A program made the translations under genes and the position numbers. Shown in pieces: positions 2,793 to 24,597 of a DNA stretch of 64,000 nucleotides. Every line of letters starts with the position of its first letter. Within the stretch, counting starts at the first letter, position 1. A model generated the notes under the pieces. That model was given only the letters and a program-made list of their open reading frames with translations. It did not search any database and was not told the origin of the DNA. Source of the DNA: Gemmatimonadota bacterium (GTDB lineage Bacteria > Gemmatimonadota > Gemmatimonadetes > Gemmatimonadales > Gemmatimonadaceae); contig JAJTGR010000038.1 of assembly GCA_021299375.1 (NCBI GenBank), positions 1-64,000 of the forward strand, read 5' to 3'.

Positions 2793-2862
2793 AGGCGCTC
2801 CTTGGTGAAAGGCGCCCTACCCTAGCGGCCCCGCCAGCACGCGCCAGCGCCCCCCCGCCCGC

Positions 2863-2897
2863 GGATCCCTCACCGGAGGGGGAACGGTGAGGGGTCC
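2863..2897. repeat. Inverted repeat with GGATCCCTCACCG arms
   Basis: Two 13-base arms (GGATCCCTCACCG at 2863-2875 and CGGTGAGGGGTCC at 2885-2897) are complementary except for one base, with a 9-base loop. The left arm extended upstream (GCGGATCCCTCACCG) recurs at 18593-18607, and a related palindrome lies at 18900-18945. It sits between two divergent operons, so it could be a dispersed palindromic repeat or a regulator site; nothing here decides. Confidence 0.6.
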
Positions 2898-2929
2898 ACG
2901 GGGGCTCGCGCGCGCCTCCTTAGAAGCGT

Positions 2930-3110: not shown

Positions 3111-3722
3111 ATGCCCAGCCCACTTACCTCCCTTCCGACCTGGTCCTCGGTGCTGCAGTTCCTACGGCGCCTCCCCAGCGACTGCCCTGTCACGCTCCAT
3201 TCGTTCCGTAACGCCAACGGTGAGCAGTTGTGGCACTGGGCTGTTCGTCAGCGGGGGCCAGATGGCCCGACCGGCCCCCACCCTGGCCCTTCCCCGTGGA
3301 TCGCGTTCGTCTCGGGGCAGACCGTGCGCAACATCTCACGGCTACTTCCGCTCTGGCTCGCGGAACGCTGCCTCCCGGTAGTGGCAGCCAACGAGATCGC
3401 ACACGCGGCGATCCGGGACCCCGCCGTCCGCCGTCGCTATCAGCTCGCCAATGCCATCGCCGAGGCGATAGCCTCGGCCCCTGAGGACTGGGAATGGACA
3501 ACCGCGTTGCTCACCCAACTCAACCCCGACCCGTTCGCCGATGCCAATGCCGATCCATGGGCCGACGCCTACGTTCGCGGCGACCCGGCTCCGCGTCAGC
3601 GTCGCGAGCCACCGACCACTGCCTTCGCGCGCCCCGAACCCCCACCCAATTCCCCCGAACCAGCGAGCCCCCGCGGCTCCACACGTCCGGTTCTTCGGAG
3701 GTTCCGTGATGGCAAGTATTAG
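3111..3722 (+). CDS. Unknown protein, first gene of a two-gene operon
   Basis: The 203-residue product has an N-terminal globular part (residues 1-130; SVLQFLRRLPSDCPVTLHSF, then a helical stretch with LPLWLAERCLPVVAANEIA) and a low-complexity C-terminus rich in P, R, D and A (NPDPFADANADPWADAY). No signal peptide or membrane segment is visible and I do not recognise a family. It overlaps the next gene by 14 bases, so the two are probably co-expressed. Coding is supported by the length, the overlap and a consistent reading frame, although antisense frames of similar size exist; an upstream GTG or a later start cannot be excluded. Confidence 0.55.
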   Translation: MPSPLTSLPTWSSVLQFLRRLPSDCPVTLHSFRNANGEQLWHWAVRQRGPDGPTGPHPGPSPWIAFVSGQTVRNISRLLPLWLAERCLPVVAANEIAHAAIRDPAVRRRYQLANAIAEAIASAPEDWEWTTALLTQLNPDPFADANADPWADAYVRGDPAPRQRREPPTTAFARPEPPPNSPEPASPRGSTRPVLRRFRDGKY

Positions 3723-4380
3723 GCTTGGCCCGGTGATAAAGGCATGGCTTCGACGCAGAGCGCCGAACGAGACCATCGCTGCGGCCCCAGCATGGAGCGT
3801 CATAGAAATCATCGCGGGCGTCACGCTCGCAGGTGATGCGATTGCTGCGCTTCGCCTCGAGGCACCGGATGGTGCGGCAATGCCACCGCTGCGCCTCGAA
3901 ACATGGACCGCCGCGGCATGCGTCGACGACAGGACTCTCCGTTCGACGGCTACGGGAGACGGACACTTCACTGCCGCGGCGGTTTACAGCGACGTGGAGT
4001 TGCGGACCATCAAGTCGTGGCGGCTTACCGACCCAAGTGGCGCGGAGCTCGTCCTCCAGCGTGAAGACGTCGCAGCCGGCCGTCGTGCCTACTTCGTTCG
4101 TGTCGACCAACGAAAGATCTTGGTCCCAGGTGACCCGAATCTGCTCGTCGTATGGGGTCGAAAAACGTTGCACCACCGTTTCTGTCCCACGTTTGAGTAT
4201 TCGGGCGGGGCGAGCCGGCTTCCCCCCGCCGATCTCCAGTCGGAACTGGCCGAGCAGGTCAAGATTTGCAGGACCTGCTTGCCTCGCGCAAACGGCAGGA
4301 TTGCGGCTACGGCGAAAGAATCGTCGACCACAACCGCCTGGGAAGAATCAGAATCTGACGATGATTCCCTTCCGTTCTGA
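3709..4380 (+). CDS. Unknown protein ending in an SSB-like acidic tail
   Basis: The start is the ATG at 3709, preceded by GGAG with about 8 bases spacing and overlapping the upstream gene by 14 bases. The 223-residue product has a central beta-rich region (VELRTIKSWRLTDPSGAELV, then AYFVRVDQRKILVPG), a possible metal site (FCP near residue 161 and CRTC near residue 190), and a C-terminus that ends WEESESDDDSLPF. The last residues closely resemble the acidic tip of bacterial single-stranded DNA-binding protein (D-D-D-I-P-F), which binds RecQ, PriA, RecO, Exo I and other repair and replication enzymes. The protein is not an obvious SSB. It may be a divergent OB-fold protein or one that mimics the SSB tail to recruit or block host DNA-processing enzymes. 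The tail is seen; the role is inferred. Confidence 0.6.
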   Translation: MASIRLGPVIKAWLRRRAPNETIAAAPAWSVIEIIAGVTLAGDAIAALRLEAPDGAAMPPLRLETWTAAACVDDRTLRSTATGDGHFTAAAVYSDVELRTIKSWRLTDPSGAELVLQREDVAAGRRAYFVRVDQRKILVPGDPNLLVVWGRKTLHHRFCPTFEYSGGASRLPPADLQSELAEQVKICRTCLPRANGRIAATAKESSTTTAWEESESDDDSLPF

Positions 4381-4437: not shown

Positions 4438-5253
4438 TCAACGCCGCGCTATTCCTCCCAGCACGCCTTTCACGGTAAGGTCAAGCTGTGATCCGTCACC
4501 GTAATCGGCCGGGGCGACAAAGTTGACACGCTTCTCGGCGATTAGCCCGTGAAGGACTCGCTGCGCAGAGTCAGATCCAATCTTCTGGGGATCGTACACG
4601 GCGATTGAGCAGCCTCCTTGCATCCGTACCGTCCGCATCGCCGGGACGTCGGTCTCACCATCGCCAATGAAGATCATTCGGGAGAACGGGATCGGCCGCT
4701 CCTCCTCAGGAATCCACTTGTTGATATTGGAGTTATCCCAAATGGTCTTGATGCCTTTGTTGATCCGGAAGAGGTGCTGCGTCTTCGAGGTATAGTTGAT
4801 CCCCGTAGCGGGCCAAACGGCAACGTTGTTCTCGAATATGAACTTCGACGCGAATACGTAGGTGAACTTCGGAAAGATCGAGCATCCCCGAATGATCTCG
4901 TAGATCCCCGAGCTGATGATGTAGTGCTCGATGTGAAGGCCGCGTTCTGTCCCGTATAGGTTGATCCGATCGAACCAGGTATCGACACCTGGGAAGTAGT
5001 TCAACGTCGAGCCATGGCGCTTCAAATCGTCCTTAGAAACTTGCACGTTGTTCCGGCGGGCGATCTCGAGCATGCGCCACATGTATACGAGGATCTCGTC
5101 GGCATTGTGACTACGCGTGCGCTCCTTCACATCGGCCCAGAAGTCCGCGGCATTGATGCCGAGTGTCGGCAGGAATGAGTGTTCCTGCATGTTGCCGGGG
5201 GCGAGTGTCCCATCGAAGTCATACACAAGTCCGACTTTGAGCGGCTGAGTCAT
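4438..5253 (-). CDS. HAD-superfamily hydrolase, DISARM-adjacent
   Basis: The 271-residue product carries HAD motif I (YDFDGTLAP, residues 11-19, with the nucleophile and acid/base aspartates), a motif II candidate IISSG near residue 113, a motif III lysine in the helical region after it, and motif IV MIFIGDGETDVPAM near residues 194-207. HAD enzymes of this type are Mg-dependent phosphatases acting on small phosphorylated compounds or phosphoserine-like substrates. A helical cap lies between motifs I and II. The gene follows drmC by 77 bases on the same strand, so it may be read with the DISARM operon, but it is not one of the described DISARM components. Its base composition looks lower in GC than the flanking chromosome, like an acquired gene. 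The substrate is unknown. Confidence 0.85.
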   Translation of the reverse strand: MTQPLKVGLVYDFDGTLAPGNMQEHSFLPTLGINAADFWADVKERTRSHNADEILVYMWRMLEIARRNNVQVSKDDLKRHGSTLNYFPGVDTWFDRINLYGTERGLHIEHYIISSGIYEIIRGCSIFPKFTYVFASKFIFENNVAVWPATGINYTSKTQHLFRINKGIKTIWDNSNINKWIPEEERPIPFSRMIFIGDGETDVPAMRTVRMQGGCSIAVYDPQKIGSDSAQRVLHGLIAEKRVNFVAPADYGDGSQLDLTVKGVLGGIARR

Positions 5254-5330: not shown

Positions 5331-6062
5331 CTAAAGCGGTCGAACGAAACCTTTTTCCCTGAGTTGCCGGAACTGCGACGCAAGCCTCGACGCAAGCAGG
5401 CGATCGTTGAGCAGGACCCCAGCCTCAATGTTGCGATACTGCGCCGCCTCAGTGAGGTTCGCCGATGTCACGAATCCTTTGCTGTCATCGACGATCACAC
5501 ACTTCGCGTGCAGGACCGACTTGGCTGCATCGCCAAGGGAGAGCGACCGGGGGTCGTAGAACACCTGCGGACGACGCTCCCATGGCCAGTCTTTCGTGAA
5601 GAATCGCTGCCGGTGCCGACTGACCACGACGTCCTCTGGATCAGTGTCGCCGCTCTTACGATCCACGTTGAGATAGAGCTCAACGACGAGATCTGGCCGC
5701 TCCGTCCATCTTTGCCAGAGCGCCTCAAAGATGCTGGCCCCATCGTATACGGCGTACCCAGAGACGAGCACGGAGCTGCCTGCTGATCGGAACAAGTCGC
5801 GCACGACCACCGCGGTATCCCGCGTAGCGGCCCCGTCGATCTCTGGCCCCGACCACACCAGCTCTACGCGCTGATCTGCCGTTCTCTCGCTGGCCTCACG
5901 GTCGGCCGCGAGAAGGTCCAGCATCTGCGCGACGGAATCGCGGCCGTACTTGGGGAGGAGTGCAATAACCTCCTCAGGAACCGCGCCCCGTTGCGCTCGT
6001 ATGTCTGCGGCGAGCGCACGAAGCGCGGCGTGCGACACGCCTGGCAACAGCCTTGCGCTCAC
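5331..6062 (-). CDS. drmC: DISARM protein DrmC, phospholipase D-like
   Basis: The 243-residue product has one PLD (HKD) catalytic motif: HAKCVIVDD at residues 185-193 (H185, K187, D192), followed by the usual SANLTEAA segment (N202) and a downstream acidic residue (E213). PLD superfamily enzymes cleave phosphodiester bonds through a histidine intermediate and many are nucleases; a single HKD motif implies dimer formation. It is the last gene of the DISARM operon and overlaps drmB by 4 bases. In the described class 1 DISARM, DrmC accompanies the DrmA-DrmB core and is the least essential part. Identification rests on the HKD motif plus its place in the operon. Confidence 0.92.
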   Translation of the reverse strand: MSARLLPGVSHAALRALAADIRAQRGAVPEEVIALLPKYGRDSVAQMLDLLAADREASERTADQRVELVWSGPEIDGAATRDTAVVVRDLFRSAGSSVLVSGYAVYDGASIFEALWQRWTERPDLVVELYLNVDRKSGDTDPEDVVVSRHRQRFFTKDWPWERRPQVFYDPRSLSLGDAAKSVLHAKCVIVDDSKGFVTSANLTEAAQYRNIEAGVLLNDRLLASRLASQFRQLREKGFVRPL

Positions 6063-7831
6063 AAGAAGAACTCGCAGCCGAGCTGTTCCACGGTTGACAC
6101 AACTAGCGAGCGATCAAGCAGCTCGTTGCGACGCTCACAGCTGGTTTCCGCGATGAGCAGACATCCATGACACGCGGCGCCAAGCGCGTACTTCTCCTCC
6201 AAGACTGCGCTGGGAGAGTGCTGCGCACAGACTGGATCGTTTGAGCAGAGCCGCCCGAGCTCGAGCGCCATCCGCAGATAGTGTTCGACGCGGCGCCCGG
6301 CGGCCACCAGCCCGCCAAGGGTGCCGTCCGCGTCTGTCGTACCGGTATAGATGAGGATTCCGCAGCCCTGTGGCGTGAGATAGATCCGCTCACGGAGCGA
6401 GCTGGCGTTGTACCCACAATCGAGTGCAACTGCTGCGATGAGCAGGTGCGCGAGCGAATGCAGCATGACATAGCGGACATCGATCGGGATCGAGCCGCCC
6501 GGCCTAGGCGCGGCGCGGAACGCAGCCTCACGCTCCTGGACCGCAGGCCTAGTTCGCCATTCGTTGATCGCGTCATCTCGGAAGGAGATGAAGATGCCTT
6601 CGCCCCGCGTTTCCATGGCCGGTACCCAACTGATCTCGGTACCGAGTGCAGCCCGACGAACCTCGAGGTCCAACTCTCCCTGAAGGTCGGGAACAACTGG
6701 TTCGAAACGCGTGAACCCGATGAGCGAGGTCACCTCACGGAGCCGATGGACCAGCACCACCCGATCAATCCCCTTGAGGACGTCCGGCACCGGCGATGGC
6801 AGCGGAAGGCAGCGCGCGAAGAAATCGCCGTCAGGACGGTCATCACCCATACTGTCCTTCGACGCGACCAGCGCCGAGAACTCCTCGATCTTGATGGGCG
6901 GACGCTTCGGGAGTGTGCCCCCCTTGATTGCCTCGATCATCTCCAGGACTGCGGTGTCGCTGTAGGGCTCCAGCGCTGTTTTGACCTTTGGGATCGCCCC
7001 ACGGAACGTGGTAAGGAGTGTGGCGTCGCCAACGTTGACCAAGACGTCCCACACGCTCTTCACAGCATCACGGAGCCCGCTGACCCCATCAGGCAATGAG
7101 AGCGCGGACAGCCGCTGTGGATAGTACGCGTTGGAGGCGGTACGAATCAGAAGACGCATCATCTGACCGTTCGCACCACCAGCTCCACAGCGCTCACCAT
7201 TCGGCAACCACGGACGGCGGCCCTTGCAAACGCCAAGCACAGATGGCTTTGTCGCCTGTGCGAGAGCGCGCTTTACGCCACATTCGCAACGCACTTGTTG
7301 ATCTGTCAGGTCGCCGCTGGTACCGAATTCGTCAAGCCAAAGACCGCGACGGCAGCTTGTTGGTCCTCCGTGAGCGAACTCGTACCACTCGAGGTCATCG
7401 AGGTGGCCGTTCAAGCACGCCTGAACGAAACGAACGGGCGTCGCATCGTAGCTCTTTCCGTCGATTTTGTACTTGAAACCCTTCTCCAGCGCCCGGCGAC
7501 TCACGAGCGGCCGGCTGCGCGCCGTACCGATCTTCACTACGTAATCCACGACGAACCAGTCCGGGAATGCCAACACCGGTATTCCCACCGGTGGCGTTCC
7601 AGGCATGTCTTCATCACGTGGTGGGAGCCGAAGGTCGACCGGCTTCGTAAGTCCCAGTGCTCGAGTCACGGCTTCCTGCAGTCGAGGCTCGGTGACAGTC
7701 TCGAGCTTGCTCTCTGGCCACCAATCAAGGCCACCCATGATGACCGATTCATCGGGGAGGTCGATGGTTGCACCCGGACCAAAGCTCGTGATTACCTGGC
7801 TGCGTCGCAGCTTTCCGTCTCCCCGTGCCAT
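6059..7831 (-). CDS. drmB: DISARM protein DrmB (DUF1998)
   Basis: The 590-residue product begins KLRRSQVITSFGPGATIDLP, typical of DrmB, and ends in the DUF1998 module: YVMLHSLAHLLIAAVALDCG with SSLRERIY, then a cysteine-rich tail (PVCAQH and ACHGCLLIAETSCERRN). Further cysteine pairs in the middle (for example CECG and CKGRRP...ERCG) suggest structural zinc. DrmB forms a complex with the helicase DrmA that loads on DNA with single-stranded 5' ends and is required for defence. The gene overlaps drmC by 4 bases, and its start touches the stop of drmA by 1 base. Confidence 0.95.
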   Translation of the reverse strand: MARGDGKLRRSQVITSFGPGATIDLPDESVIMGGLDWWPESKLETVTEPRLQEAVTRALGLTKPVDLRLPPRDEDMPGTPPVGIPVLAFPDWFVVDYVVKIGTARSRPLVSRRALEKGFKYKIDGKSYDATPVRFVQACLNGHLDDLEWYEFAHGGPTSCRRGLWLDEFGTSGDLTDQQVRCECGVKRALAQATKPSVLGVCKGRRPWLPNGERCGAGGANGQMMRLLIRTASNAYYPQRLSALSLPDGVSGLRDAVKSVWDVLVNVGDATLLTTFRGAIPKVKTALEPYSDTAVLEMIEAIKGGTLPKRPPIKIEEFSALVASKDSMGDDRPDGDFFARCLPLPSPVPDVLKGIDRVVLVHRLREVTSLIGFTRFEPVVPDLQGELDLEVRRAALGTEISWVPAMETRGEGIFISFRDDAINEWRTRPAVQEREAAFRAAPRPGGSIPIDVRYVMLHSLAHLLIAAVALDCGYNASSLRERIYLTPQGCGILIYTGTTDADGTLGGLVAAGRRVEHYLRMALELGRLCSNDPVCAQHSPSAVLEEKYALGAACHGCLLIAETSCERRNELLDRSLVVSTVEQLGCEFFL

Positions 7832-10800
7832 CAGTTACGCCCCCGCTTGATCAGTACAACCTCAGGCTCGACGTCACGCATCGAGCGCGCGGCGCGGAAT
7901 GCGCGCTCCTCCTTCGGGAGCACCGACAGGTCTCGGTCGAGCGGGTCGCGAAGCAATGGTTTTGCGGAGTCCACCTTCTCAAAGGGCTGATACTTGAGCG
8001 CCGCACCCGCGTGTGACTGGTTGTGCGCGAAGGTGCTCCACATGTCCAAAAGCTCCTCAGCGAGCCCGCGGATCTTGGTCCGAAGGGCATCGCGATGGGC
8101 GGAGTCCATGGCGGGGTCGTGCTCGGTGACGCGGGTAGCAAGTGTCTCGGATACGAAGTCCAGTCGCGGACGAAGCGCCTCGACGTCGATCGCTTTGGCC
8201 GCAGGCGTGAGCTCGCGAAGCCCATGTCGCGCAAGGGCCACCACGAGCGCCGGTAGGACACGATCAATGGCCCGGGGGGCGAACGGCGTGACGCTGGTGG
8301 CCTCGACCGAGCGATAGAACGTGCGGTGATAGAAAGCAAAGCGCTCGTAGTGCGATCGGTCACGCGGCTTATTGACACTCAGCAGCGTAACGACCAATCC
8401 TGGGCGATTCGGATCGCGCCCCACTCGACTCGTCGACTGGATGTATTCAGCGCTTCCCTTCGGCTGTCCGAGGACCACCATGAGACCGAGTCGCGTAATA
8501 TCGAGACCCACGGAGATCATGTTCGTCGCGAGGGCGACGTCGACACTTCGGTCCTTGGCCCCTGCAAGCCACGATTGCTCCAGCCGCTTCTTGGCTTGCG
8601 ACACCGCGGTGGTTGAGACACGTGAGGTGAGCTCCATCACCTCATAGGCAATATCTCGGTTCGCGAATAGCCCAACCGCTTCACCTACGCGCCGGCGATC
8701 CGCGTATGCGCGAACGCGGTCAATCACCTCGCCTTCCACGATACGGCGCGCTCCACCCAGCTCTCGCAGGGCGTTGAAGTAGCCAAGGAGAGAGAGGTAT
8801 GGATCCGCCGGATTGGTTCCGGCCTTTGCCGCGGCGTCCCCCCCGTTATCCAGATACGCCTTCATCGATGCGGCTAGAAGTGCTACATAAGTGCGCAACA
8901 TGACAACACGCAGGCTTCGCCCGGGCGCGGCAACACCCACGTACTCGCGCGGGGCCACTTCGCCTGGCGACGCCGTCACCGCGAAGAATGTGTCGCGGCG
9001 ATCCGGCGACGCTGGAGGGAAGAGCTCTACGGCCTTGCGCGCGAACAACGCTCGACACTGCGACTCAGCGCGTCGCACCGTGGCCGTTGACGCGACAATC
9101 TTCGGTCGGATGCGAGCATCACCGTCCTTCCTGCTCGCGAAGTGATCGATGGCCGTTTCGTACAGGCCCGCGATGGTCCCCAACGCGCCTGAGATGAGGT
9201 GAAGCTCGTCTTGAATAACAAGGTCCGGCGGTAGCAGCGATCCACCGGAGATAGGCGTGCCTATGCCTGGGTCGGACGCGCCGTAGAAGCCGGCGGCATC
9301 ATGCCGATCAACATGCCCAAAGAGAGCCCCCGCCCGCTCCTCAAATGGCAGACCAGCGAACTTATCGACAGTTGCGATGACGAAGCACGGCAGGCGGCGA
9401 TACAGCGGCTCGTCAACGACGATGAGCGGGAGTGGGCGATCTCCCGTAAAGTCACAGTCCTGATTGGCGCACAGTACCGCAAGGTCACCCGGATTGTCCG
9501 CGTTCGGCCGGAGATGGAAAGAGTCCTTGGTAAACTCTGTGCCACACCATGGGCACGTCTCCATCGGAAGCGGCGATCCGCCCTTGCCCTGCTTGAACTT
9601 GAGCGTGCGGGCACGAGCAGTATCGTCGCGCTGATCGCCCTTCCGCCCCATACGCAACGGTGTGGCCGCCTTGCCGACCCACAACCCGATCTCGAACGGC
9701 CAATCGCCCAGCTCACCGGGGTATGCGACGCGCAGTCGCTCGAGCGCGCAAATCAGAGCAGTCGCGCGGCCCAACTGATCGAGCGTGAGCAGACGGAGCG
9801 TATAACGCATTAACACAGACACGCCCGCGCCACGTACACCTTCGTTGCGTAAACGTCGCAGAGTTAACGTGAAAGCGGCGAGACCGAGATAGGCTTCCGT
9901 CTTGCCACCACCAGTCGGGAAGAAGAGGAGATCCACGATCTCGCGATCGTCATGTGTCGGCTCGGCGATCCCCCGGAGGTTGAGCAAAAAGAATGCGAGC
10001 TGGAACGGGCGCCACGCGGGCGCACTCACCGCCTCCGGCTTCTGCTTGAGGCGCGCCCCATCGCGATGTCGCGCCGCGTCAGCCATGGCGGCATTCGCCA
10101 GCTGGAAAGCCCGTCGTACGTCACTCGCTTTGAGGAGCGCGATACCGTCGGCCATCCTGGCACACGCGCGATCGGCGCGAGCCAGCAGGTCTTCGGCGGT
10201 CTTCCTCCTTTCCGGGTCTACAGGGAGCATGCTGCGACGTGCGGCGATCCATTCCGCGTACCGAGCGACGAGGGGGTTCAGCCCCTCCGCCAGCTCCTGT
10301 TCAGAGGCCGCAGCGAGCTGCTCCATACCGCGCATTACGTCAGCGATGTCCGAAGGACTGGTGAACGGCACCTCAGCGCACGGCTGCCACGTCGTCCACA
10401 CGCGCGTGCAAGTCCCGCCCGCGTCATCCCATGAGCAGGCGATATTGTGGCCAGTCGCGTACTCAAGGGTGTCCGCATACTGCAGGTCGGCGACCCGCTC
10501 GTCCCAATCGTCTGCCGTACCACGGCGCGGATCGGGGCGGCCCAGAAATCCCGCGTCGCAATGCAGTTCAACTGACGCTTGGAAGACGTACCCGGTGTCC
10601 GGCGACTCCTTATCGCCCGGAGTCCGCTCGTTCACCAGAAACACAGCAACCGACTGTGTCCCCGCGATGAGGCGCGACCCCGCAAAGTCCGCCGGCCGAG
10701 CGTAGGCGTACAGCCAAAGCCCGTTGCTGTCGGGAACCTGTACGCGCGTGGGCTTTGCCTTGGGCTTGGGGAGAGGGAGGACAACACCCTGTTCGTACCC

Positions 10801-11346
10801 CGTCCGCCGCCATACCTCGTCAGTTCGCACTTCCTCGCGCTTTTGACTGTCTGCGGTCGCTTGGCCCTCACTACGGTCGCCGGTCTTCGCGTCTTCGCCC
10901 GGGGGCTGCGCTTCGGGCGAATAATCACCCCAACGGACAACGGCCTTGATGGTGTCGGAACCAGCAGGCACGAGAACACTTAGCCCGATTGACGAAGGGA
11001 GAAAGACGCGCCGAGCCGCACTCTTTTCGGTGGCTGTGTCCTCGTCCGCAGATCCCTTATCATCGGCGAAGCCATCGATCTCCTCCTGAGAGGCCTCGTC
11101 GGACTTTTCTTCCTCGGGAGTCTCCCTCGGAACCAAGAAGCCTGTCAGGTACCAGCGCGACGGGCGCATTGGCAACCGTTCGGCGGCGTATTGAGAATCC
11201 TCAGAGAACCTTGCCGGTTCTGGTCCGACGAGATCAAGCCGAAGCGCTCGAATGAGCTGGTGGCGCACTCGGGGAGCGGACTGCTGGTTGAGGGGCATCA
11301 CAGAATTCGCCGCGTTGTCAGAAATGGAATTCTCAGGTTCGTTCAC
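7831..11346 (-). CDS. drmA: DISARM helicase DrmA
   Basis: The 1171-residue product has a long N-terminal region with an acidic insertion (residues 70-110), then a superfamily 2 helicase core: Walker A PTGGGKTEAY at 477-486, a Cys4-type site (CPWCG, later CANQDC), a Walker B-like QDELHLISGALG, SAT-like STATVRRAE, and the C-terminal motifs ATNMISVGLDITRLG and STSRVGRDPNRPG. This is the DrmA layout. With DrmB it forms the core of DISARM, engaging incoming phage DNA and translocating on it. It overlaps drmMI upstream by 4 bases and drmB downstream by 1 base, so the operon is likely translated as a coupled set. The start ATG at 11346 is fixed by the overlap. Confidence 0.96.
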   Translation of the reverse strand: MNEPENSISDNAANSVMPLNQQSAPRVRHQLIRALRLDLVGPEPARFSEDSQYAAERLPMRPSRWYLTGFLVPRETPEEEKSDEASQEEIDGFADDKGSADEDTATEKSAARRVFLPSSIGLSVLVPAGSDTIKAVVRWGDYSPEAQPPGEDAKTGDRSEGQATADSQKREEVRTDEVWRRTGYEQGVVLPLPKPKAKPTRVQVPDSNGLWLYAYARPADFAGSRLIAGTQSVAVFLVNERTPGDKESPDTGYVFQASVELHCDAGFLGRPDPRRGTADDWDERVADLQYADTLEYATGHNIACSWDDAGGTCTRVWTTWQPCAEVPFTSPSDIADVMRGMEQLAAASEQELAEGLNPLVARYAEWIAARRSMLPVDPERRKTAEDLLARADRACARMADGIALLKASDVRRAFQLANAAMADAARHRDGARLKQKPEAVSAPAWRPFQLAFFLLNLRGIAEPTHDDREIVDLLFFPTGGGKTEAYLGLAAFTLTLRRLRNEGVRGAGVSVLMRYTLRLLTLDQLGRATALICALERLRVAYPGELGDWPFEIGLWVGKAATPLRMGRKGDQRDDTARARTLKFKQGKGGSPLPMETCPWCGTEFTKDSFHLRPNADNPGDLAVLCANQDCDFTGDRPLPLIVVDEPLYRRLPCFVIATVDKFAGLPFEERAGALFGHVDRHDAAGFYGASDPGIGTPISGGSLLPPDLVIQDELHLISGALGTIAGLYETAIDHFASRKDGDARIRPKIVASTATVRRAESQCRALFARKAVELFPPASPDRRDTFFAVTASPGEVAPREYVGVAAPGRSLRVVMLRTYVALLAASMKAYLDNGGDAAAKAGTNPADPYLSLLGYFNALRELGGARRIVEGEVIDRVRAYADRRRVGEAVGLFANRDIAYEVMELTSRVSTTAVSQAKKRLEQSWLAGAKDRSVDVALATNMISVGLDITRLGLMVVLGQPKGSAEYIQSTSRVGRDPNRPGLVVTLLSVNKPRDRSHYERFAFYHRTFYRSVEATSVTPFAPRAIDRVLPALVVALARHGLRELTPAAKAIDVEALRPRLDFVSETLATRVTEHDPAMDSAHRDALRTKIRGLAEELLDMWSTFAHNQSHAGAALKYQPFEKVDSAKPLLRDPLDRDLSVLPKEERAFRAARSMRDVEPEVVLIKRGRN

Positions 11347-14300
11347 AGATTTCTCCCCGTTGCTCGCTCCCGGTTCAGTTCGAGCAGCTTCGCAAGCACC
11401 TCATCGCGCACCTCGTCAGGCCAGCGTAGGCGGTACTTACGCTTGGCGCGGGTGCCGGGCTCGATCTCGTCCTCGTCGAACTCGGGGATGAACTCAGCGA
11501 CCGGGTTGATGTCTGTCCAGCCGTACGTTTCGAGCGCGGCGCGATCCAGTGCCGCGTGCAGGTCGCGCAGGCGCTGTGTCTCGGCAGACTGGTCCTCGGG
11601 GTCATGGAACCGATTGTAGGTGTCGGTGAGCCCTTGGTCGCGGTTGACCATCAGCTCTGAGCGGTAGTCGTGGTACGCGCGGCCGGCACTCTCGAGCGCT
11701 GGTGATTCCTGCCAATCCACAGGGAAGGGGAATGTCTCGAAGCAGTCCGAAGGGGTGTACCGGAAGTCACTCTTCATGGTTGGCCCTAAGAAGAGCGCCC
11801 AAAGCTGATGAACCCGCGATTGAAGAACGGCGAAGCCGCTTTGCTGGTCGATCGCGAACAAAACGGACGTGTGCGAGAAGACCTGCCCAGCGTCAAGGAA
11901 TGCCATTGCTTGAGCATTACTGGTTTGCGCTGTGAAGAGCACATTGCTGTAGCCCCGCAACGCCCTCTGCATCTCGTTACGCCTCTCAGCAAACAGCCAC
12001 CAATTCTTTCGGTACGACGCCCGATTGTCATTGAGCCGGGACGGCCTGACCTTCGCCTCAACGATCTGCATCAACTCCGGCCAACCCGCCCGCGCCTCCG
12101 CTTCGGTCAAATCTCCGAAATTGATGACATACCGCCGATGCGCATGCGTCGGGCTATCGTTGACTTCTTCTCCGCCGATATACGGGAAGATCACCTCCTG
12201 ATTTCGCGGGTTCTCCGCGATCAGCCTGTGCATTTCCGCGATTGGCGTCGCGTCCGGGTTGTCATCATCGAACGTGAAGCCCATACCGAGCACGTAGCTC
12301 CCGATGAAGCTCTTACCCGCGTTCTCTGGTAGGGGGGCTGGATCGGCATCGCTGCCTGCATGAAAGAGGAACGCTGTGATGAGCGACGACTCCTTTCCAT
12401 CGATGCGATACGGTCCCCCGTATGCACCGCGGACGCCGTGCACCACCGAAACGACCACCGCCGCCGCACCGGGCCACCTGTAACGGCGCCGTGCCTCGTA
12501 GAGCGTGCACCGGTGCTCACGCAGCCAACGTAGGCCGGTCGCGCGCGTATCCCCTTGCGCGATCGTGTTCGTTGCGATCAACCCGAACGTTCCGCCCTCC
12601 CGCAGCAGGCCGTACACGCGGCGGAAGAAGTGCGCCACCAGATCGGCGTTGCCGTGCGCGCCCTCATGCAGCTCCTGCAACCACGGCAGGTAAAGCGGCG
12701 GGTTACCGTTGATAAGCGTGTTCTTGCCAGCGAAAGGCGGATTGCCCACAAACGCGTCGAATCCCGGTGTCGCGCGCCGGAATACTTCGGGGAACTCCAC
12801 CTCCCAGTGGAACGGCACGATGCCATGCGCACGAAAGTCGTCCGACAGGCGCGTGAGCGCTTCCACGTCGCGACGCCCGAGAGCATTTGCCGCCCGCATC
12901 TCGAGCGTCGATCGCAGTGACTCGCGTGCCTTGTCCTTCTCCGCGCCGAAGAAGGCTGTGAGCACCGCATCGCCTACCCGCCGCACCAGATCGAGCTGCG
13001 CGTCGGCCTCCCGCAGCAGCACCTGCTTCTCGTTGGTGTCGTCGGAATCGGCCATGGCCTCGATCTGGTCACGCCGACCGTCCGCCTGTACGAGGCAGTC
13101 TTCCACTACTGACGCCCACAGGTGCCGCTGTGCACTGCCTCCCGGCGCCCAGTGGAACGTAGTGATCTGCTGGTAGGTGAGCCCCACGAGCGAATCACCG
13201 TGCCGCAGCGCGTGATCGAGGAAGGTGAACGGATGCTCGCGCGCGAGGGTCACCAGCCAAAGCGAGAGCTTGGCGAGTTGTACGGCGTACGCGTTGCGGT
13301 CCACCCCATACAGGCATTGCTGGGCGACGAGCCGGCGGGCGTACAGTTGCGGGTCCTCGTCGGGCGGCATGGGAGGCATGTGCCCCTGCCGCTGCCACGC
13401 CTCAACAAGCTTGTCGCCAAGGTATCGGCAGGCGCCCACCAGAAAGGCCCCTGAGCCCATGGCCGGGTCACACACTTTGAGCGCAAGTATCTGCTCCGGC
13501 GTGGGCGCCCCGCCGAACGCCTCGAAGATTGGGCGCAGCGTAGTCGCCACGATCGGCTCTGTCAGCTCGCGCGGCGTGTAGTGCGACCCGCTGCGGCGGC
13601 GTTCTTCGGTGGGGTGCAGCACCAGCCCACCACGACGCACCTCCTGTGGCGTGAATGGTGACCGGCGCTTCTGAAGCGCCTCGAGCAACTCGGCCACGCC
13701 GGTGGCCTGCTTGAGGAGCGTCGCCTGCGCCGCCGGCAGCTCCACGTCGCAGTGCTCCTTGAGCCACTTCACACGATCGGCGCCTCGCTGACGCAGCAAC
13801 GCGTCCAGGTCGCACACGGGGTGCGCAGGCGCACCCTTGCCCTTGCTCTTGGGCACCAGCGCCACCGACGTGCCAAGGGCCGGCCTCACCTCGAAGCCCA
13901 TCATGGCCTCGTATACAGAGCCAATCTGCTCCACGTCGAGCGCGCGATACGAAAGCCGCTCGCCGTCGAGCACCAGCAGCCGCTCTAGCACACCCAGGAC
14001 GCAGCCGTCGCTTATCCGGGGAACGCTCGCGAGTCGTTCGCCCATGACACGGCGTGCACCCCACGGGCGGCCTTCGAGGAAAGGATATCGATCGGGGTCG
14101 AACAGCTCACCGGCGCGCGCAGGGATCCGCATGGCGCCGTGCCGCGCTCCGTCATGCAGGATGCGCGTGAGCGCGAGGAGGCGAGCCCACGCACCGTAGC
14201 GTTGCTCCATCGTATCGGGGTACCGCGCGCGATCGGCGGAGAGTTGCTCATACAGAGCGCCCACGCCGTAGTGCTGCACCCACGAGGCGTCCTGCGGCAG

Positions 14301-15194
14301 CATGCCGCGCTCTTCCGCGTAGAGCACGAACACCAGGCGCATGATGGTGGTGAGCAACCCGCCGTACACTTCCTGCGGCGCTTCAGCGAGCGTATCCCGG
14401 AGTACGTCGCCGTCTGCCGCATCGTCAGCAGCCTGAATCCCGCGCAGCAGCACGTACAGCCCATCGAGTACCTGCTCCGCGAGCTGCGTGGATACGTCGT
14501 TCTGGTATTTCCGAGATTCTCTCAGGAGGTGCCCGAGTCGCTGGCCGCTCGGGCACGCGCGCGAGAGGCGCCACCCGCTCAGCAACTGCGTCATGGCCAG
14601 GAACATCGGGCGCCCTGAGACTGTGCCCATGGCCGACACCGGGAACGACAGGTACCCCGACGACTCACCGCGCGGTGCGTATACGAACCGAATCACACGG
14701 TCCGTGACGAGAAGCCCGGCGCCGACCCCAGTCTCCCGCAGAAGCCGCTCAAACTGATCCTGCGGCGACGCCGTCCACGTGCTGTCGTTACTCGGGCGGT
14801 CAGGGTCCGCACCGTTGGCCAGCACGCGCACCAACAGTTGAAACGCGTCCTGCTCCGGGTCCGGGACCGCGAAGGTCGGCTCCAGCCGAACCTGCAATTC
14901 CGGAAGCGAGAGAACGAGCGAGTCCGGGATAGCGGGGCCGCCCGGCATGCCGGCGATACTCTGAGGGCGCCAGCGGAGGATCTGCTCAGCGAAAGCGACG
15001 AAGTCGACCAACGTCCGGTCGCCTCGTTCATCAGGCGCGGAGAGCAAGTCGCTATACAACCGCCAGCTGTCGCGGGCCGATTCATCAATCACAACCCCGG
15101 CCCGCATGAGGGCCTTGGGTACGACGACAAGTCCAACGGGCTGGATAAGTCCCAGCCACTCCTGATGCGCCAGCAACTCCCGATCAACCATCAC
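11343..15194 (-). CDS. drmMI: DISARM class 1 adenine-specific DNA methyltransferase DrmMI
   Basis: The 1283-residue product has the SAM-binding motif VCDPAMGSGAFLVGACRYLG at residues 574-593 and the catalytic motif NPPF at 818-821, preceded by a motif (RSGSHYTPRELTEPIV) typical of large N6-adenine methylases of the type IIG/PglX-like kind. A long N-terminal helical domain (1-530) and a C-terminal region resembling target-recognition parts (GYSNVLFTAQTSNAQAMAFL, then FRYTPSDCFETFPFPV) flank it. In class 1 DISARM this enzyme marks host DNA so that the system spares it. The recognition sequence cannot be read here. It overlaps drmD and drmA by 4 bases each. Confidence 0.95.
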   Translation of the reverse strand: MMVDRELLAHQEWLGLIQPVGLVVVPKALMRAGVVIDESARDSWRLYSDLLSAPDERGDRTLVDFVAFAEQILRWRPQSIAGMPGGPAIPDSLVLSLPELQVRLEPTFAVPDPEQDAFQLLVRVLANGADPDRPSNDSTWTASPQDQFERLLRETGVGAGLLVTDRVIRFVYAPRGESSGYLSFPVSAMGTVSGRPMFLAMTQLLSGWRLSRACPSGQRLGHLLRESRKYQNDVSTQLAEQVLDGLYVLLRGIQAADDAADGDVLRDTLAEAPQEVYGGLLTTIMRLVFVLYAEERGMLPQDASWVQHYGVGALYEQLSADRARYPDTMEQRYGAWARLLALTRILHDGARHGAMRIPARAGELFDPDRYPFLEGRPWGARRVMGERLASVPRISDGCVLGVLERLLVLDGERLSYRALDVEQIGSVYEAMMGFEVRPALGTSVALVPKSKGKGAPAHPVCDLDALLRQRGADRVKWLKEHCDVELPAAQATLLKQATGVAELLEALQKRRSPFTPQEVRRGGLVLHPTEERRRSGSHYTPRELTEPIVATTLRPIFEAFGGAPTPEQILALKVCDPAMGSGAFLVGACRYLGDKLVEAWQRQGHMPPMPPDEDPQLYARRLVAQQCLYGVDRNAYAVQLAKLSLWLVTLAREHPFTFLDHALRHGDSLVGLTYQQITTFHWAPGGSAQRHLWASVVEDCLVQADGRRDQIEAMADSDDTNEKQVLLREADAQLDLVRRVGDAVLTAFFGAEKDKARESLRSTLEMRAANALGRRDVEALTRLSDDFRAHGIVPFHWEVEFPEVFRRATPGFDAFVGNPPFAGKNTLINGNPPLYLPWLQELHEGAHGNADLVAHFFRRVYGLLREGGTFGLIATNTIAQGDTRATGLRWLREHRCTLYEARRRYRWPGAAAVVVSVVHGVRGAYGGPYRIDGKESSLITAFLFHAGSDADPAPLPENAGKSFIGSYVLGMGFTFDDDNPDATPIAEMHRLIAENPRNQEVIFPYIGGEEVNDSPTHAHRRYVINFGDLTEAEARAGWPELMQIVEAKVRPSRLNDNRASYRKNWWLFAERRNEMQRALRGYSNVLFTAQTSNAQAMAFLDAGQVFSHTSVLFAIDQQSGFAVLQSRVHQLWALFLGPTMKSDFRYTPSDCFETFPFPVDWQESPALESAGRAYHDYRSELMVNRDQGLTDTYNRFHDPEDQSAETQRLRDLHAALDRAALETYGWTDINPVAEFIPEFDEDEIEPGTRAKRKYRLRWPDEVRDEVLAKLLELNRERATGRNL

Positions 15195-18100
15195 CCGCTC
15201 ACCGGCCAGAGGTACACAACGCCGAGTGGCTCGACGCGGCTATGACGAATGGAGTACGACTCTCGGATACGCGCCGGTTCGCGCTGGCGCTCTCCCTGAA
15301 GCGCCTGCAACCGCGCTTCCCAGTGACGACGCTCGGACTGGAGCTGACGGAGCTCCTGGCTGTCGAGTCCAAGCTCAAGCTGCTGACTCTCACCAACCTG
15401 AGCGGTGATCCGGTTCACACGCTCAACGATGAGACGTTCGAGCTCACGGGCTTCCCGATCGCCGCGTTCTGCCAGCTTCAGACGGGCCTCCTCAGCGACC
15501 ACGTCGGCACGCGCCTCGAGGTGCGGGCGCAAGGCGATAACGTCGTCGTGAAGCGACTCCTGAAGGCGATCCATGACCTCCTTCGGCACGGGGCGCGTGT
15601 CTCCCTCAGGGAGCGTGCGGTCGAGAAGCTCCAGCGTCTTCGCCTCTCCCGTCCCGCCTTCCGTAAATGGTTCGAGTGCACCACCGCGCTGCGAGGGTGA
15701 GCGCCAACGCGCTGCCACCGCAATGATCTCGTCATGGAGGCGGCCCGCTTGCGGCCCATACAAAGACAGTCTCCCGAGGAGTACGACGCGAGGCACTGAA
15801 TCCTCGGTGTGCCCCACGCACGCCCTGGCCAGGTCGTATTGCACCAGTCCCTGCGCGGTGAAGCGACCGAGCAGGCGCTGCACTATGCGTTGTTCAAGGT
15901 GCAAATGCACGGTGTCCGGATCGGGGATACCGTGATCGCGGAATACGACCGGGCGCAGTGCGGTGCGGCTACGCCATTCAGCCACCGTCATCTTCTTCCG
16001 GTCCCGTGACGGACGGAGTGTGTCGAGTGTGTCCTGCCATGACGGATCGTTCGCCGGCAGTGGCACCTGCCAAAGCGAACGACCACGCTCCAGCGTTTCC
16101 TGCATTGGCTGTCCGCCAGACAAGACGAGGGCGCGATCAAGCGCGGCACGGAAGGCAGGCTCCCGGAAGTTCAGGTGCGCTTCGGCCTTCTCCCGCAACG
16201 ACTCAAGCCGCTCGATCTGACCTTCGAGGTCTTCACGCTTCGCGCGCGCCACCTCGAGTTCCTCCAGCATCTGTTGGCGCCTGACAGGATCCGCTTCGAC
16301 ATCTCGAATCTTCACGGTGAGGTCGTTGAGCCCCTTTCTAGTGATGCCATTTGCCAGCAGCCGCTCGACCTGACGTTCGAGTACCGGCGCCATCGACCCG
16401 AGCTGCGTGCGGATGCGCTCGGTCTTCAGCACCAGCGTTTCAAGGACGCGGTCTTCGGGGCGCTGTTCCAGCACGAAGTAATGGCAACGGACTTCTTCGG
16501 CGGGTTGTCCCTTTCGATCGATTCGGCCATTACGCTGCTCGAGGCGCGCCGGATTCCACGGGAGGTCGAAGTGGAAGAGATCCGCGCAGTAGGCTTGCAG
16601 GTTGAGACCTTCGCGTGCCGCGTCCGTCGCGATGAGAATGCGAACGGGGTGCTTCGCCGGATCGGTCGTAAACGCCTTCTTCACCGACTCGCGCGCATCC
16701 TCCCCCATCCCGCCGTGGTACACGAGGATGCGCTCATCCTCGCGGTCCGACCCGGCGATGGCCTGGCGAAGCTGCTGCTCGAGATAGCGCTTGGTATCCG
16801 CGTATTCGGTAAAGATGATCGCGCGGCGCGGCAACCACCCATACGGCTCCCCTTCCCGACGCAGCTCGTCCAACGCGGGGAGGGTGGGGCACTGATTGCT
16901 TCGGATCCAGTCTACCAGCTCCCGCACACGCGGATCGGACGCTGAGCGATGGCGATTGGCGATCTCGAGCATGTCGCGCACCAGTGCGACCTCGCGACGC
17001 AGGAGCTCCTGGGAGCCGTACGACGCGGCTTCGGTCGCTCTCGCCATCGCGTCGTCCTCCGACTTGAGGAGCTCCTCTTCGTTCGTCTCCGCCGCGTCGT
17101 CGTCCGCCCCCGGCGGGGTCAGATCATCCAGTGTGACACTTGACGCCTGCCCCTCAGGTGGCGCTTGCTCAAGCAGTCGCTCTAGCGTCCTAAGATGCAC
17201 GGCGGCCGTGCGCGCGAACGCTTCGATCGACGACAGCAGGCGTTTCTGCAGGCCGATGATCGTCAGTCGGCCTGCTGCTTGGGCTGTCTTCTTGGCTGTG
17301 GAGAGCCTCTCCTCGCGAACCGCGTTCAGGTCTTCCAGCATGTTCGCGAGCACCAGCTCCGGTGCGTCAGCTGGCAAGCCCTCGATGCTGACCTTCTCTA
17401 CTTTGCGAACGGCAAAACCGCCCTGAAGTTGGCGCAGGTCTTCCTTGAGGCGCCGCACCATGATCGGTTCGAGTTCCTTGGCACTCTTGACCGGCACCCC
17501 GCGGGTAAAGCGCTGAGGATCAAGCAGCTCGAGAAGCGCCGCGAAGCTGTTGGAATGCCCGTTGTGCGGTGTGGCCGACAGGAAGAGCCGATGCTCGAAG
17601 CGACCAGCCAAGTCTCGGATGACGCGCGTGAACTGCGAGTCGATCGCGTACTTGGACCCGGACGACGGCGCCGCATGGTGCGCTTCATCGAGAATGAGGA
17701 GCGTTCCGGGCGCCGACTCCCCAAGCCAATCTCTGAGACCGCTAGCATACGACTCGTCGGCCAGCAGCGAATGGGAAATGATGAACCGCGAGTGCGTGGT
17801 CCACGGGTTGATGGCGTGGCCGCGCTCCATTCGCTTCCGCTGCACGTACGCCCGATCGTACACCTCAAAGATCAGGCCGAAGCGCTGCTCGAGCTCTTCC
17901 CGCCACTGCGGGACGACCGACGGCGGCGCAGCGACGACCACGCGGTGCACTCGCTGGCGAAGCATCAGCTCGCGCAGGATCAGCCCCGCCTCGATCGTCT
18001 TGCCCAAGCCCACGTCGTCGGCCACGAACAGGTTGACCCGTGGCAGCTGCAAGGCCTTTCGGAGCGGCTCGAGCTGATACGCCATGACCTCGATCCCCGC

Positions 18101-18436
18101 CCGGAACGGCGCCTGGAAAAGCGTGGGATCCGTGGCCGTGACTGTGTTCCAGCGGATGGCGTTCAGGTAGGCCGCAAACAGGCCGGGGGCGTCGAAGCCA
18201 TGCTCCCCAATGTGCTGCCAGCCGGCGTCCGCGAGGATTTCAGCGTCCACCTCGCGCTCCCAGAGCACCTCGGTGACCATCCCCAACGCGTCGTCCTCGA
18301 TGCAGGAGAGACGCACCAAAGTGTCCACGTCGTCCATCTCTGGCGGGACGACTGCTTCGACAAGGTGCCGGCGGGTTCTGCAACGAACCAAGGCGCCGGG
18401 GGCAAGAGCTGCGGCTTCAATAAATGTGGGGGTCAT
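15191..18436 (-). CDS. drmD: DISARM class 1 SNF2-family helicase DrmD
   Basis: The 1081-residue product is an SNF2/HepA-like ATPase: Walker A DDVGLGKTIEAGLILRE (residues 140-156), DEAHHAA (250-256), LSATPHNGH, and the C-lobe motifs ATDAAREGLNLQ and PWNPARLEQRNGRIDRKGQ. The C-terminal third is rich in charged helices, likely coiled coil. DrmD is the marker of class 1 DISARM and is thought to move on double-stranded DNA. It is the first gene of the five-gene operon. ATG at 18436 is used; a 521-base gap separates it from the next gene upstream, and the operon promoter should lie there. Confidence 0.95.
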   Translation of the reverse strand: MTPTFIEAAALAPGALVRCRTRRHLVEAVVPPEMDDVDTLVRLSCIEDDALGMVTEVLWEREVDAEILADAGWQHIGEHGFDAPGLFAAYLNAIRWNTVTATDPTLFQAPFRAGIEVMAYQLEPLRKALQLPRVNLFVADDVGLGKTIEAGLILRELMLRQRVHRVVVAAPPSVVPQWREELEQRFGLIFEVYDRAYVQRKRMERGHAINPWTTHSRFIISHSLLADESYASGLRDWLGESAPGTLLILDEAHHAAPSSGSKYAIDSQFTRVIRDLAGRFEHRLFLSATPHNGHSNSFAALLELLDPQRFTRGVPVKSAKELEPIMVRRLKEDLRQLQGGFAVRKVEKVSIEGLPADAPELVLANMLEDLNAVREERLSTAKKTAQAAGRLTIIGLQKRLLSSIEAFARTAAVHLRTLERLLEQAPPEGQASSVTLDDLTPPGADDDAAETNEEELLKSEDDAMARATEAASYGSQELLRREVALVRDMLEIANRHRSASDPRVRELVDWIRSNQCPTLPALDELRREGEPYGWLPRRAIIFTEYADTKRYLEQQLRQAIAGSDREDERILVYHGGMGEDARESVKKAFTTDPAKHPVRILIATDAAREGLNLQAYCADLFHFDLPWNPARLEQRNGRIDRKGQPAEEVRCHYFVLEQRPEDRVLETLVLKTERIRTQLGSMAPVLERQVERLLANGITRKGLNDLTVKIRDVEADPVRRQQMLEELEVARAKREDLEGQIERLESLREKAEAHLNFREPAFRAALDRALVLSGGQPMQETLERGRSLWQVPLPANDPSWQDTLDTLRPSRDRKKMTVAEWRSRTALRPVVFRDHGIPDPDTVHLHLEQRIVQRLLGRFTAQGLVQYDLARACVGHTEDSVPRVVLLGRLSLYGPQAGRLHDEIIAVAARWRSPSQRGGALEPFTEGGTGEAKTLELLDRTLPEGDTRPVPKEVMDRLQESLHDDVIALRPHLEARADVVAEEARLKLAERGDREARELERLIVERVNRITAQVGESQQLELGLDSQELRQLQSERRHWEARLQALQGERQREPARIRESYSIRHSRVEPLGVVYLWPVSG

Positions 18437-18588: not shown

Positions 18589-18617
18589 TACCGCGGATCC
18601 CTCACCGCAGGGGTAGG
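18589..18617. repeat. Second copy of the GCGGATCCCTCACCG repeat
   Basis: The segment 18593-18607 repeats the 15-base sequence at 2861-2875. It is framed by CTACC and GGTAG, which could close a short hairpin. It lies upstream of drmD, while the first copy lies between the two left operons, so the copies bracket the DISARM-HAD-SSB-tail block. Confidence 0.55.
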
Positions 18618-18899: not shown

Positions 18900-18945
18900 C
18901 CCGCGGATCCCTCGCCTCGGCCTTGGCCAGTGAGGGATCCGCGGG
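18900..18945 (-). terminator. Large palindrome, probable terminator of the 18958-19278 gene
   Basis: CCCGCGGATCCCTC (18900-18913) and GAGGGATCCGCGGG (18932-18945) are perfect 14-base complements with an 18-base loop. It begins 12 bases after the stop of the minus-strand gene. There is no U-run, so it may instead be a member of the GGATCCCTC palindrome family seen at 2863 and 18593. Confidence 0.5.
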
Positions 18946-18957: not shown

Positions 18958-19278
18958 TTACAGTTTCGATGCGGCTTCGGCCACGGCGGCAAAGTTCTGG
19001 TCGTCGAGGCGGTACCAGAGCCGCCCCAAGTCCAGCGGAAGCACCTGCCCGTCGATGGGCACCTCGGCGATGGCCGCGGCAGCCTCCAGCACCAGCAACT
19101 CGCCGGTGCACCAGAAGCCGTACGAAAGGAGGCGCTGGTAGTCCGGGCCGCCAGTCTTGAGGAGAGCACTCCTGATGGTGGAGCTGTTGCGGGCGACCGG
19201 AGCCGACTCCAAGAGCTCTCTCGCGATCTGATGGCGGCGAGCGGCGGAATTCGAAGGGGCTGCGGACGAGGTAGTCAT
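18958..19278 (-). CDS. Small unknown protein upstream of DISARM
   Basis: The ATG at 19278 is preceded by GGGAGA with 7 bases spacing, which decides the start over a longer frame. The 106-residue product has a polar N-terminus (MTTSSAAPSNSAARRHQIA), then helices (SSTIRSALLKTGGPDYQRLL, ELLVLEAAAAIAEV) and an alanine-rich C-terminus. There is no signal peptide or transmembrane span. I do not recognise a family. It is transcribed toward DISARM but separated from drmD by 521 bases and a palindrome, so it is probably not part of that operon. Confidence 0.6.
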   Translation of the reverse strand: MTTSSAAPSNSAARRHQIARELLESAPVARNSSTIRSALLKTGGPDYQRLLSYGFWCTGELLVLEAAAAIAEVPIDGQVLPLDLGRLWYRLDDQNFAAVAEAASKL

Positions 19279-19626
19279 CTGGTTCTCCCGGTGAGCGCGA
19301 ATGTCCCGCGGCGGCCAATCCGCCGGGCGACCCGCCACCATAACGGAGCGAGCGTCGGCTGCCTCGTGGGGCCTGACTGCCGAGTTGACCCCAGCCAGCT
19401 GGGTCCTGGTGCGCTCCCGACCGGAAAAAGCCGCCCGCCGGCAACACCGAATCGATTAGAGAGGGCAGACCCGGGGAGCTACGTCGGGTCCTGGTGGATC
19501 AGTTCGAGGGCGGCAATCCCAAGGCACCGGGCGTCGGCTTGGTGGCGGGGGATGGGGGGGTTGGGCGCCGCGAAATCGCACCGTTATTGCGGAAGGGCCC
19601 CTAACAACAACGGAGACCCTGCCCGC
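19279..19626. other. Divergent intergenic region upstream of the recombinase operon
   Basis: This 348-base gap lies between the small minus-strand gene and the plus-strand helix-turn-helix/recombinase pair and should hold both promoters. I see no convincing gene, RNA or clear promoter boxes in it. Confidence 0.4.
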
Positions 19627-20049
19627 ATGCTGGCCGCTGCTTCCCTTGATCTCGCAGTAGAAAAGACCGCAACCCGCTCGCGCACCGACCAGCAAGAGCC
19701 GGTGGCCGAGGCCCCGGCGGGAAAGGTGCGATACCTGACCGACCTCGCCCTCCGCGAACGGCTCGCCGCTTGGGAAACGACGCTAAACGACGCTGCAAAG
19801 TTCGGACTTGATGTCCAATCTCAGCTTGCGATGGTTTCTCGCTTTCACAAGCTGATTGAGGAGCTGGCCAAGTCGCCCCAGCAGCTTTCCACGCGCGAGC
19901 TCGCAGCGGCAGAGGGGGTCTCCCAACGGACGGCGCAACGTCGTCAGCGTGATCTGTCGGCCCTCGGCCCGCGGTATGACCGTCAGAAGGCGCTCGCCGG
20001 TGCGGCACGTGCTGGCCGTAGCGCGCAGGTCGGGGGTATGAGCCGATGA
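19627..20049 (+). CDS. Helix-turn-helix protein paired with the recombinase
   Basis: The start is the ATG at 19627, with GGAGA about 10 bases upstream. The 140-residue product has a helical middle (LRERLAAWETTLNDAAKFGL, QSQLAMVSRFHKLIEELAK) and a C-terminal helix-turn-helix (STRELAAAEGVSQRTAQRRQ), followed by a basic tail. The HTH looks like those of DeoR/sigma-70 region 4-like or phage regulators. Its stop overlaps the ATG of the integrase gene (ATGA), so the two are translationally coupled. By analogy with integrase modules it may act as a recombination directionality factor or as a regulator of the integrase; this is inferred from position only. Confidence 0.65.
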   Translation: MLAAASLDLAVEKTATRSRTDQQEPVAEAPAGKVRYLTDLALRERLAAWETTLNDAAKFGLDVQSQLAMVSRFHKLIEELAKSPQQLSTRELAAAEGVSQRTAQRRQRDLSALGPRYDRQKALAGAARAGRSAQVGGMSR

Positions 20050-23572: not shown

Positions 23573-23651
23573 CAAGTGCCTCCAGGTCTGATTGCCGCGA
23601 GTTCGATGCGCCCGCAACAGTCCGGTAACGCCCTACCCTGCGCTGTTCCCC

Positions 23652-24590: not shown

Positions 24591-24597
24591 GACAGAC

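Follow-up and report, generated by a model that had tools for sequence, protein, structure and literature searches.

The class 1 DISARM of Ofir et al. 2018 is said to carry its five genes in the order drmD-drmMI-drmA-drmB-drmC. The class 1 mechanism has been studied in Serratia, where the trigger loop of DrmA comprises residues 176-232 (PMC9142583), and the N-terminal part of class 1 DrmA carries an EVE-like domain (PMC12458937). Here we analyzed a DISARM operon found in 64,000 nucleotides of Gemmatimonadaceae DNA (JAJTGR010000038.1, positions 1-64,000, assembly GCA_021299375.1), referred to below as the window, together with a phylum sample of 395 Gemmatimonadota genomes in which relatives are labelled G###, contigs C## and fetched loci L###; the window genome is G000 and its contig, C4, begins within the island described below. 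The operon is a complete class 1 DISARM that is very probably the cargo of an integrative element of about 27.6 kb, inserted in the 3' half of a tRNA-Pro(CGG) gene of a Gemmatimonadaceae chromosome. Its genes, with the evidence that names them, are the following:

15191-18436, minus strand: drmD, SNF2-like helicase, 1081 amino acids (aa) (NF038317, PADLOC DrmD, helicase motifs)
11343-15194, minus strand: drmMI, N6-adenine DNA methyltransferase with an MmeI-like target recognition domain, 1283 aa (PADLOC, Pfam)
7831-11346, minus strand: drmA, superfamily 2 (YprA-family) helicase, short form, 1171 aa (NF038325, 7s9v_A)
6059-7831, minus strand: drmB, DUF1998/MZB zinc-binding partner of DrmA, 590 aa (NF038324, 7s9v_B)
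5331-6062, minus strand: drmC, phospholipase D-like nuclease, 243 aa (NF038319, PLDc_2, HxKx4D)

None of the five genes has an internal stop and all are full length; along the drmD-drmMI-drmA-drmB-drmC junctions they overlap by 4, 4, 1 and 4 bases. The open reading frame (ORF) positions agree with an initial annotation of the window, which had assigned the five class 1 genes this order, these coordinates and the minus strand, and had given overlaps of 1-4 bases. That annotation had also proposed a comparison with DISARM profiles, and the outcome was favorable: four NCBIfam models scored above their cut-offs, namely DISARM_DrmD (NF038317, 1054 bits, cut-off 610), DISARM_DrmAS (NF038325, 1120 bits, cut-off 950), DrmB_fam (NF038324, 511 bits, cut-off 240) and DISARM_DrmC_I (NF038319, 178 bits, cut-off 133), and the top PADLOC match was a DISARM protein for every gene (DrmC, E 6e-74; DrmB, E 2e-67; DrmA, E 2e-275; DrmD, 1019 bits, E 0). 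No NCBIfam DrmMI model matched the methylase; in PADLOC it scored 1289 bits as DrmMI versus 549 as a type IIG enzyme and 33 as PglX. Pfam assigned SNF2/helicase domains to DrmD and the Eco57I, MmeI_Mtase and MmeI_TRD domains to DrmMI; DrmA has a helicase C domain, DrmB the MrfA Zn-binding domain (PF09369, MZB) and DrmC PLDc_2. The sequence motifs are intact in DrmD (Walker A GLGKT, DEAH, SATP and QxxGRxxR), DrmMI (DPAMGSG, of the form DPxxGxG, and NPPF), DrmA (Walker A GGGKT and DELH) and DrmC (HxKx4D as HAKCVIVD), and together with PF09369 they bear out the helicase, NPPF methylase, DUF1998 and HKD motifs reported earlier. This profile agreement across the operon is far beyond chance. As to class, the adenine methylase is DrmMI and not DrmMII by its PADLOC match and its Eco57I/MmeI domains, and the DUF1998/MZB domain is encoded by a separate gene, drmB. 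Judged from its sequence, the operon belongs to the short-DrmA subtype of class 1 DISARM and is an ordinary system of a known kind. Scans for sigma-70 promoters and terminators between 4.3 and 20.1 kb gave no excess over shuffled sequences.

The island that carries the operon was delimited by its tRNA repeat, by empty sites in relatives and by comparison with an island in G269, a genome of the same genus. The features of its borders and of the genes around the cargo are:

1-80, unstranded: end of a multi-copy insertion sequence with the terminal repeat CTACGCACTATT, which recurs at contig ends
69-602, minus strand: N-terminal part of a TrwB/TraG-D-like ATPase, broken at the contig end by the insertion sequence (G269 homology)
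599-2792, minus strand: backbone genes 599-1138, 976-1770 (lipoprotein with DxSxS, a von Willebrand factor A-like motif) and 1761-2792 (membrane protein), in the same order in G269 and sister elements
3111-4380, plus strand: backbone genes 3111-3722 and 3541-4380, in the same order as their G269 counterparts and 43% and 31% identical to them
18958-19341, minus strand: small conserved gene between the cargo and the helix-turn-helix (HTH) and integrase genes, 53% identical over 92 aa to its G269 counterpart
19627-20049, plus strand: small HTH protein overlapping the integrase gene, start codon uncertain (weak HTH_11 match; 40% identity to the G269 counterpart)
20046-21527, plus strand: divergent tyrosine recombinase, presumed island integrase, 493 aa (predicted fold, catalytic residues)
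24545-24592, plus strand: island attachment site, tRNA-Pro(CGG) 3' half at the chromosome-side end (48 of 48 bases identical)

No tRNA-Pro gene was found in the window by ARAGORN or by Rfam at gathering and E-value thresholds; the only tRNA gene found was a tRNA-Arg at 57712. The intact tRNA-Pro(CGG) lies on contig C70, with the first 3 kb of the island, and the fragment at 24545-24592 is identical to its 3' half (G000:C70:3058-3131) plus 3 bases beyond, so that a 48-bp direct repeat of the tRNA 3' end stands at both borders. The fragment is followed by the native tRNA terminator hairpin and then by DNA of higher G+C. In G055 and G181 the site is empty, the same tRNA being directly followed by the terminator, and the visible boundary that the initial annotation had described is thereby supported. 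Its tRNA-Pro island is real and ends at a tRNA-Pro fragment; the tRNA-Pro gene itself is not in the window, where a 48-bp 3' piece represents it. The piece of ATPase at 69-602 is 54% identical to residues 8-174 of a 455-aa protein of G269 with TrwB_AAD_bind and TraG-D_C domains, and residues 168-455 are represented on C70. Contig C70 probably adjoins C4, because one ATPase gene is split over both ends (N-terminal part at C4:75-578, C-terminal part near the C70 tip) and because of the tRNA order. The island would therefore consist of C70:1-3057 and C4:1-24592, which add up to about 27.6 kb, and of the internal part of the insertion sequence, which the assembly lacks. Both contig tips end in this insertion sequence: an inverted copy of CTACGCACTATT is near the C70 tip, and the first 72-75 bases of C4 occur at three other contig ends with 100% identity. 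ORFs in other loci that carry the insertion sequence end gave no Pfam match; by the look of its peptide ends the insertion sequence may be IS630-like.

The presumed integrase matched nothing in Pfam, NCBIfam or PHROG. Its AlphaFold model (mean pLDDT 79.5, pTM 0.52) matches Cre, XerH and, more weakly, the Tn1549 integrase (best E 9e-6), as well as viral integrases, and this predicted fold points to a divergent tyrosine recombinase. Residues R297, R423 and Y454 are invariant; the placement of the second catalytic arginine is uncertain (K422/R423). Relatives were identified in 17 of the 395 phylum genomes. A tRNA gene or fragment was present in 14 of 29 integrase loci taken with flanks of about 1.5 kb, and in 12 of those 14 it was tRNA-Pro; chance co-occurrence, estimated from tRNA density, is about 3% per locus. 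This integrase family favors tRNA-Pro. No relatives were found in phages, and the only plasmid with one was the Gemmatirosa kalamazoonensis megaplasmid (NZ_CP007129.1, positions 115-788).

In G269, a 24.2-kb island (G269:C19, about 80495-104796; L204, L205) follows the same tRNA-Pro and ends in the same fragment. Next to the tRNA the two islands have nearly the same sequence; the left two genes of the G269 island show 84-86% identity to their C70 counterparts, and the backbone genes, the small gene, the HTH gene and the integrase (45% identity) are homologous and collinear. The cargo slot of G269 holds an SNF2/phospholipase D helicase, a DUF1156 methylase (HmaB-like) and a DUF499 ATPase (HmaC-like). 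The island thus appears to swap defense systems between relatives. The module of ATPase, lipoprotein and membrane protein was also located at other loci of G079, G331, G181, G269 and G336 (L262-L267), without the tRNA-Pro integrase; three of these loci have a tRNA-Ser or tRNA-Leu gene within reach. Because PADLOC mad8 is also matched by the ATPase of G269 (E 7e-12), a defense role of the ATPase module is possible.

DrmA and DrmB align over most of their lengths with their Serratia counterparts solved by cryo-electron microscopy (DrmA, 7s9v_A, phmmer E 1e-158; DrmB, 7s9v_B, E 2e-91). DrmB keeps four zinc cysteines in the C-x5-C ... C-x2-C pattern of Serratia DrmB. DrmA has 1171 aa versus 1325 in Serratia, 154 fewer, and aligns from Serratia residue 211 (envelope from 131). 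An acidic low-complexity stretch at residues 74-110, approximately, is about where the trigger loop would be expected and, by its position and composition, may correspond to it. In the printed alignment K803 of Serratia is kept; the equivalent of R659 is uncertain, the nearest arginine being at 658 in the printed numbering. Three observations weigh against an intact, Serratia-like DISARM carried by one continuous island: DrmA lacks about 130 residues at the N-terminal end compared with Serratia DrmA, R810, one of the DNA-contact residues tested in Serratia, is a glutamate in the window protein, and the C70-C4 join rests on a split gene and not on a continuous read. Because of the shorter DrmA and the replacement of R810, the mechanism of Serratia may apply only in part. 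Following that system, DrmMI would methylate adenines of the host DNA and so mark it as self, and the DrmA-DrmB helicase complex would be restrained by the trigger loop and load onto DNA with 5' single-stranded ends, such as that of an invading phage. The second helicase, DrmD, and the nuclease DrmC, which is reported to be non-essential, would help to block or degrade the phage DNA. The recombinase of the island would presumably have moved DISARM between strains; the present copy of the island may no longer transfer by itself because its backbone ATPase is split by the insertion sequence.

Other DISARM loci of the phylum bear on the state of this operon. DrmD was detected above cut-off in 13 of the 395 genomes, and the order drmD-MI-A-B-C occurs in G328, G326, G169, G045 and G225; G161 has drmD-MI-A-B, with drmC not detected within the stretch read. 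The most durable of the competing explanations is that the operon is complete and yet inactive, a decaying passenger of the island, which we consider improbable. The island ATPase gene broken by an insertion sequence would agree with decay, as would the drmC of G328, which matches in two pieces, and the drmA of G045 and G225, which is split into two ORFs, although assembly errors are possible in these cases. However, the five window genes are full length and keep their catalytic motifs, and since the drmC and drmA genes of those relatives look broken, the window DISARM is to be counted among the intact copies.

The gene that follows drmC was considered as an added functional subunit of DISARM:

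4438-5253, minus strand: haloacid dehalogenase (HAD) family phosphatase, PADLOC candidate PDC-S34 (E 5e-107; Pfam HAD)

It lies 77 bp after drmC on the same strand and belongs to a PADLOC candidate defense family. However, none of 80 relatives of this protein has an adjoining DISARM operon (3 of the 80 have single weak helicase or methylase matches), ten sampled neighborhoods of these relatives include type I restriction and specificity genes, and no HAD match was present in the other DISARM loci read. A DISARM subunit is thus quite improbable, even more so than decay, and we rejected it on the context of the 80 relatives; from these surroundings the HAD protein is best regarded as a putative common passenger of defense loci. 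Literature searches found nothing joining DISARM, drmMI and haloacid dehalogenase. The initial annotation holds in calling the copy intact, with full-length ORFs and conserved motifs, and the HAD neighbor of drmC stands outside the system.

An assignment to ARMADA instead of DISARM is very improbable. DrmD and DrmMI by themselves cannot tell the two apart (PMC12458937), but DrmA matches both the DISARM DrmA models and Serratia DrmA, and a DUF1998 module in a gene of its own, here drmB, is the DISARM arrangement according to the same paper. Finally, a BREX/Pgl or type IIG restriction system resembling DISARM has practically no chance of being correct: the methylase core of DrmMI is common to type IIG enzymes and PglX and the helicase core of DrmD to BrxHI/HII, but the PglX score is negligible beside that of DrmMI, no BREX hallmark gene was among the island genes scanned, and the DISARM models of DrmA, DrmB and DrmC, all above curated cut-offs, rule out a BREX/Pgl identity. 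The two outcomes that the initial annotation had named beforehand as contrary to it, a BREX/Pgl assignment and the absence of DrmB homology, did not occur (PglX 33 bits, DrmB 511).

The DISARM-carrying island also contains a 17-bp repeat, CCSCGGATCCCTCACCG, which is present upstream of drmD and recurs at corresponding positions in the G269 sister island:

2859-2901, unstranded: inverted pair of the repeat, 2859-2875 (plus) and 2885-2901 (minus), in the divergent gap between backbone genes (hairpin -38 kcal/mol)
18591-18607, plus strand: repeat CCGCGGATCCCTCACCG, about 155 bp upstream of the drmD start, an exact copy of the repeat at 2859
18901-18944, unstranded: repeat variants in an inverted pair, 18901 (plus) and 18928 (minus), at the same position in the G269 island (hairpin -41 kcal/mol)

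The form CCGCGGATCCCTCACCG is exact at 2859 and 18591, and these are the only places in the whole genome with an exact 14-base core; a search for the 17-base form with at most one mismatch returned four genome places, all in the island. In the G269 island (L204 and L205 joined) the repeat sites are at 8230, 20957, 20984 and 23599, with matches in the divergent gap and next to the small gene as in the window, and the 18901-18944 site is 84% identical to the G269 site over 57 bp. Across the phylum the repeat form with CCS was found exactly at 17 places in 8 of the 395 genomes, all of the window's genus, and for 13 of the 17 the contig is known to bear the ATPase module or the island. No copy is present in 214 kb of other DISARM loci, fetched as thirteen stretches, and for this reason the repeat is attributed to the element and not to DISARM. 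Matching sites in two sister islands, one site just upstream of drmD, and the near-absence outside such elements would suit an operator. We therefore put forward, tentatively and as a rather doubtful proposal, that the island represents an undescribed family of Gemmatimonadaceae elements with a common backbone, swappable defense cargo and a private repeat that could serve as operator of an element-encoded regulator, tying DISARM expression to the element. The alternatives are a REPIN-like repeat or a DNA-processing site, and the operator reading fits less well with sister elements in which some copies lie between co-oriented backbone genes.

The rest of the island, between the integrase and the attachment site, holds the following genes:

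21701-23617, minus strand: weak GapS1-like protein, 638 aa, candidate defense gene (NCBIfam GapS1, E 5e-4, far below cut-off)
23652-24339, minus strand: toxin-antitoxin pair, HTH antitoxin at 23652-23975 and RelE-family toxin at 23959-24339 (Pfam RelE, 124 bits; HTH_3)

The GapS1-like protein, which sits between the integrase and the toxin-antitoxin pair, has relatives at 24-27% identity in 9 other phylum genomes. In G079 (C8, L200) two tandem tRNA-Pro 3' fragments enclose a toxin-antitoxin pair 90-96% identical to that of the window, which suggests that the two genes move together at the tRNA-Pro site as a small unit. The small gene at 18958-19341 has a product without Pfam match. In the native chromosome part of the window, two adjacent AcrB-type RND efflux pump genes are followed by an HlyD-type membrane fusion gene (44697-52258); the RND pump region shows a strong GC skew over 45-51 kb, and a 15-bp tandem repeat of 7.5 copies (49474-49585) lies within the second pump gene.

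Compared with the class 1 DISARM of Ofir et al. 2018, the window has the same five genes in the same order. The DrmA Walker A and the DrmB zinc cysteines are common to this system and that of Serratia sp. SCBI, whereas the window DrmA is short and without the N-terminal region to which the EVE-like domain was assigned (PMC12458937). The other Gemmatimonadota DISARM systems (G328, G326, G169, G045, G225 and G161) share 41-65% protein identity with this one, and short DrmA ORFs (1147-1215 aa) occur in G326, G169, G328 and G161 as well. With tRNA-targeting genomic islands the element shares integration in the tRNA 3' half, the fragment at the far end and an internal recombinase; however, its recombinase is without a Pfam, NCBIfam or PHROG match and of a family that favors tRNA-Pro, in the libraries used no described system resembled its backbone module or its 17-bp repeat, and no description of the element turned up in the literature searches made. 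The DISARM operon itself is one more intact member from a little-studied phylum, and the carrier island and its repeat are the part worth following. The private repeat offers a sequence handle for further elements and for asking whether the element controls the defense genes of its cargo. The Hma-type system of G269 occupies the same cargo slot, in a homologous backbone at the same tRNA, and its defense genes differ from the DISARM genes of the window. On the same chassis, at the same tRNA-Pro, one genome of the genus thus has DISARM and another an Hma-like system, and this shared chassis with differing cargo makes the exchange of defense systems between strains directly traceable.

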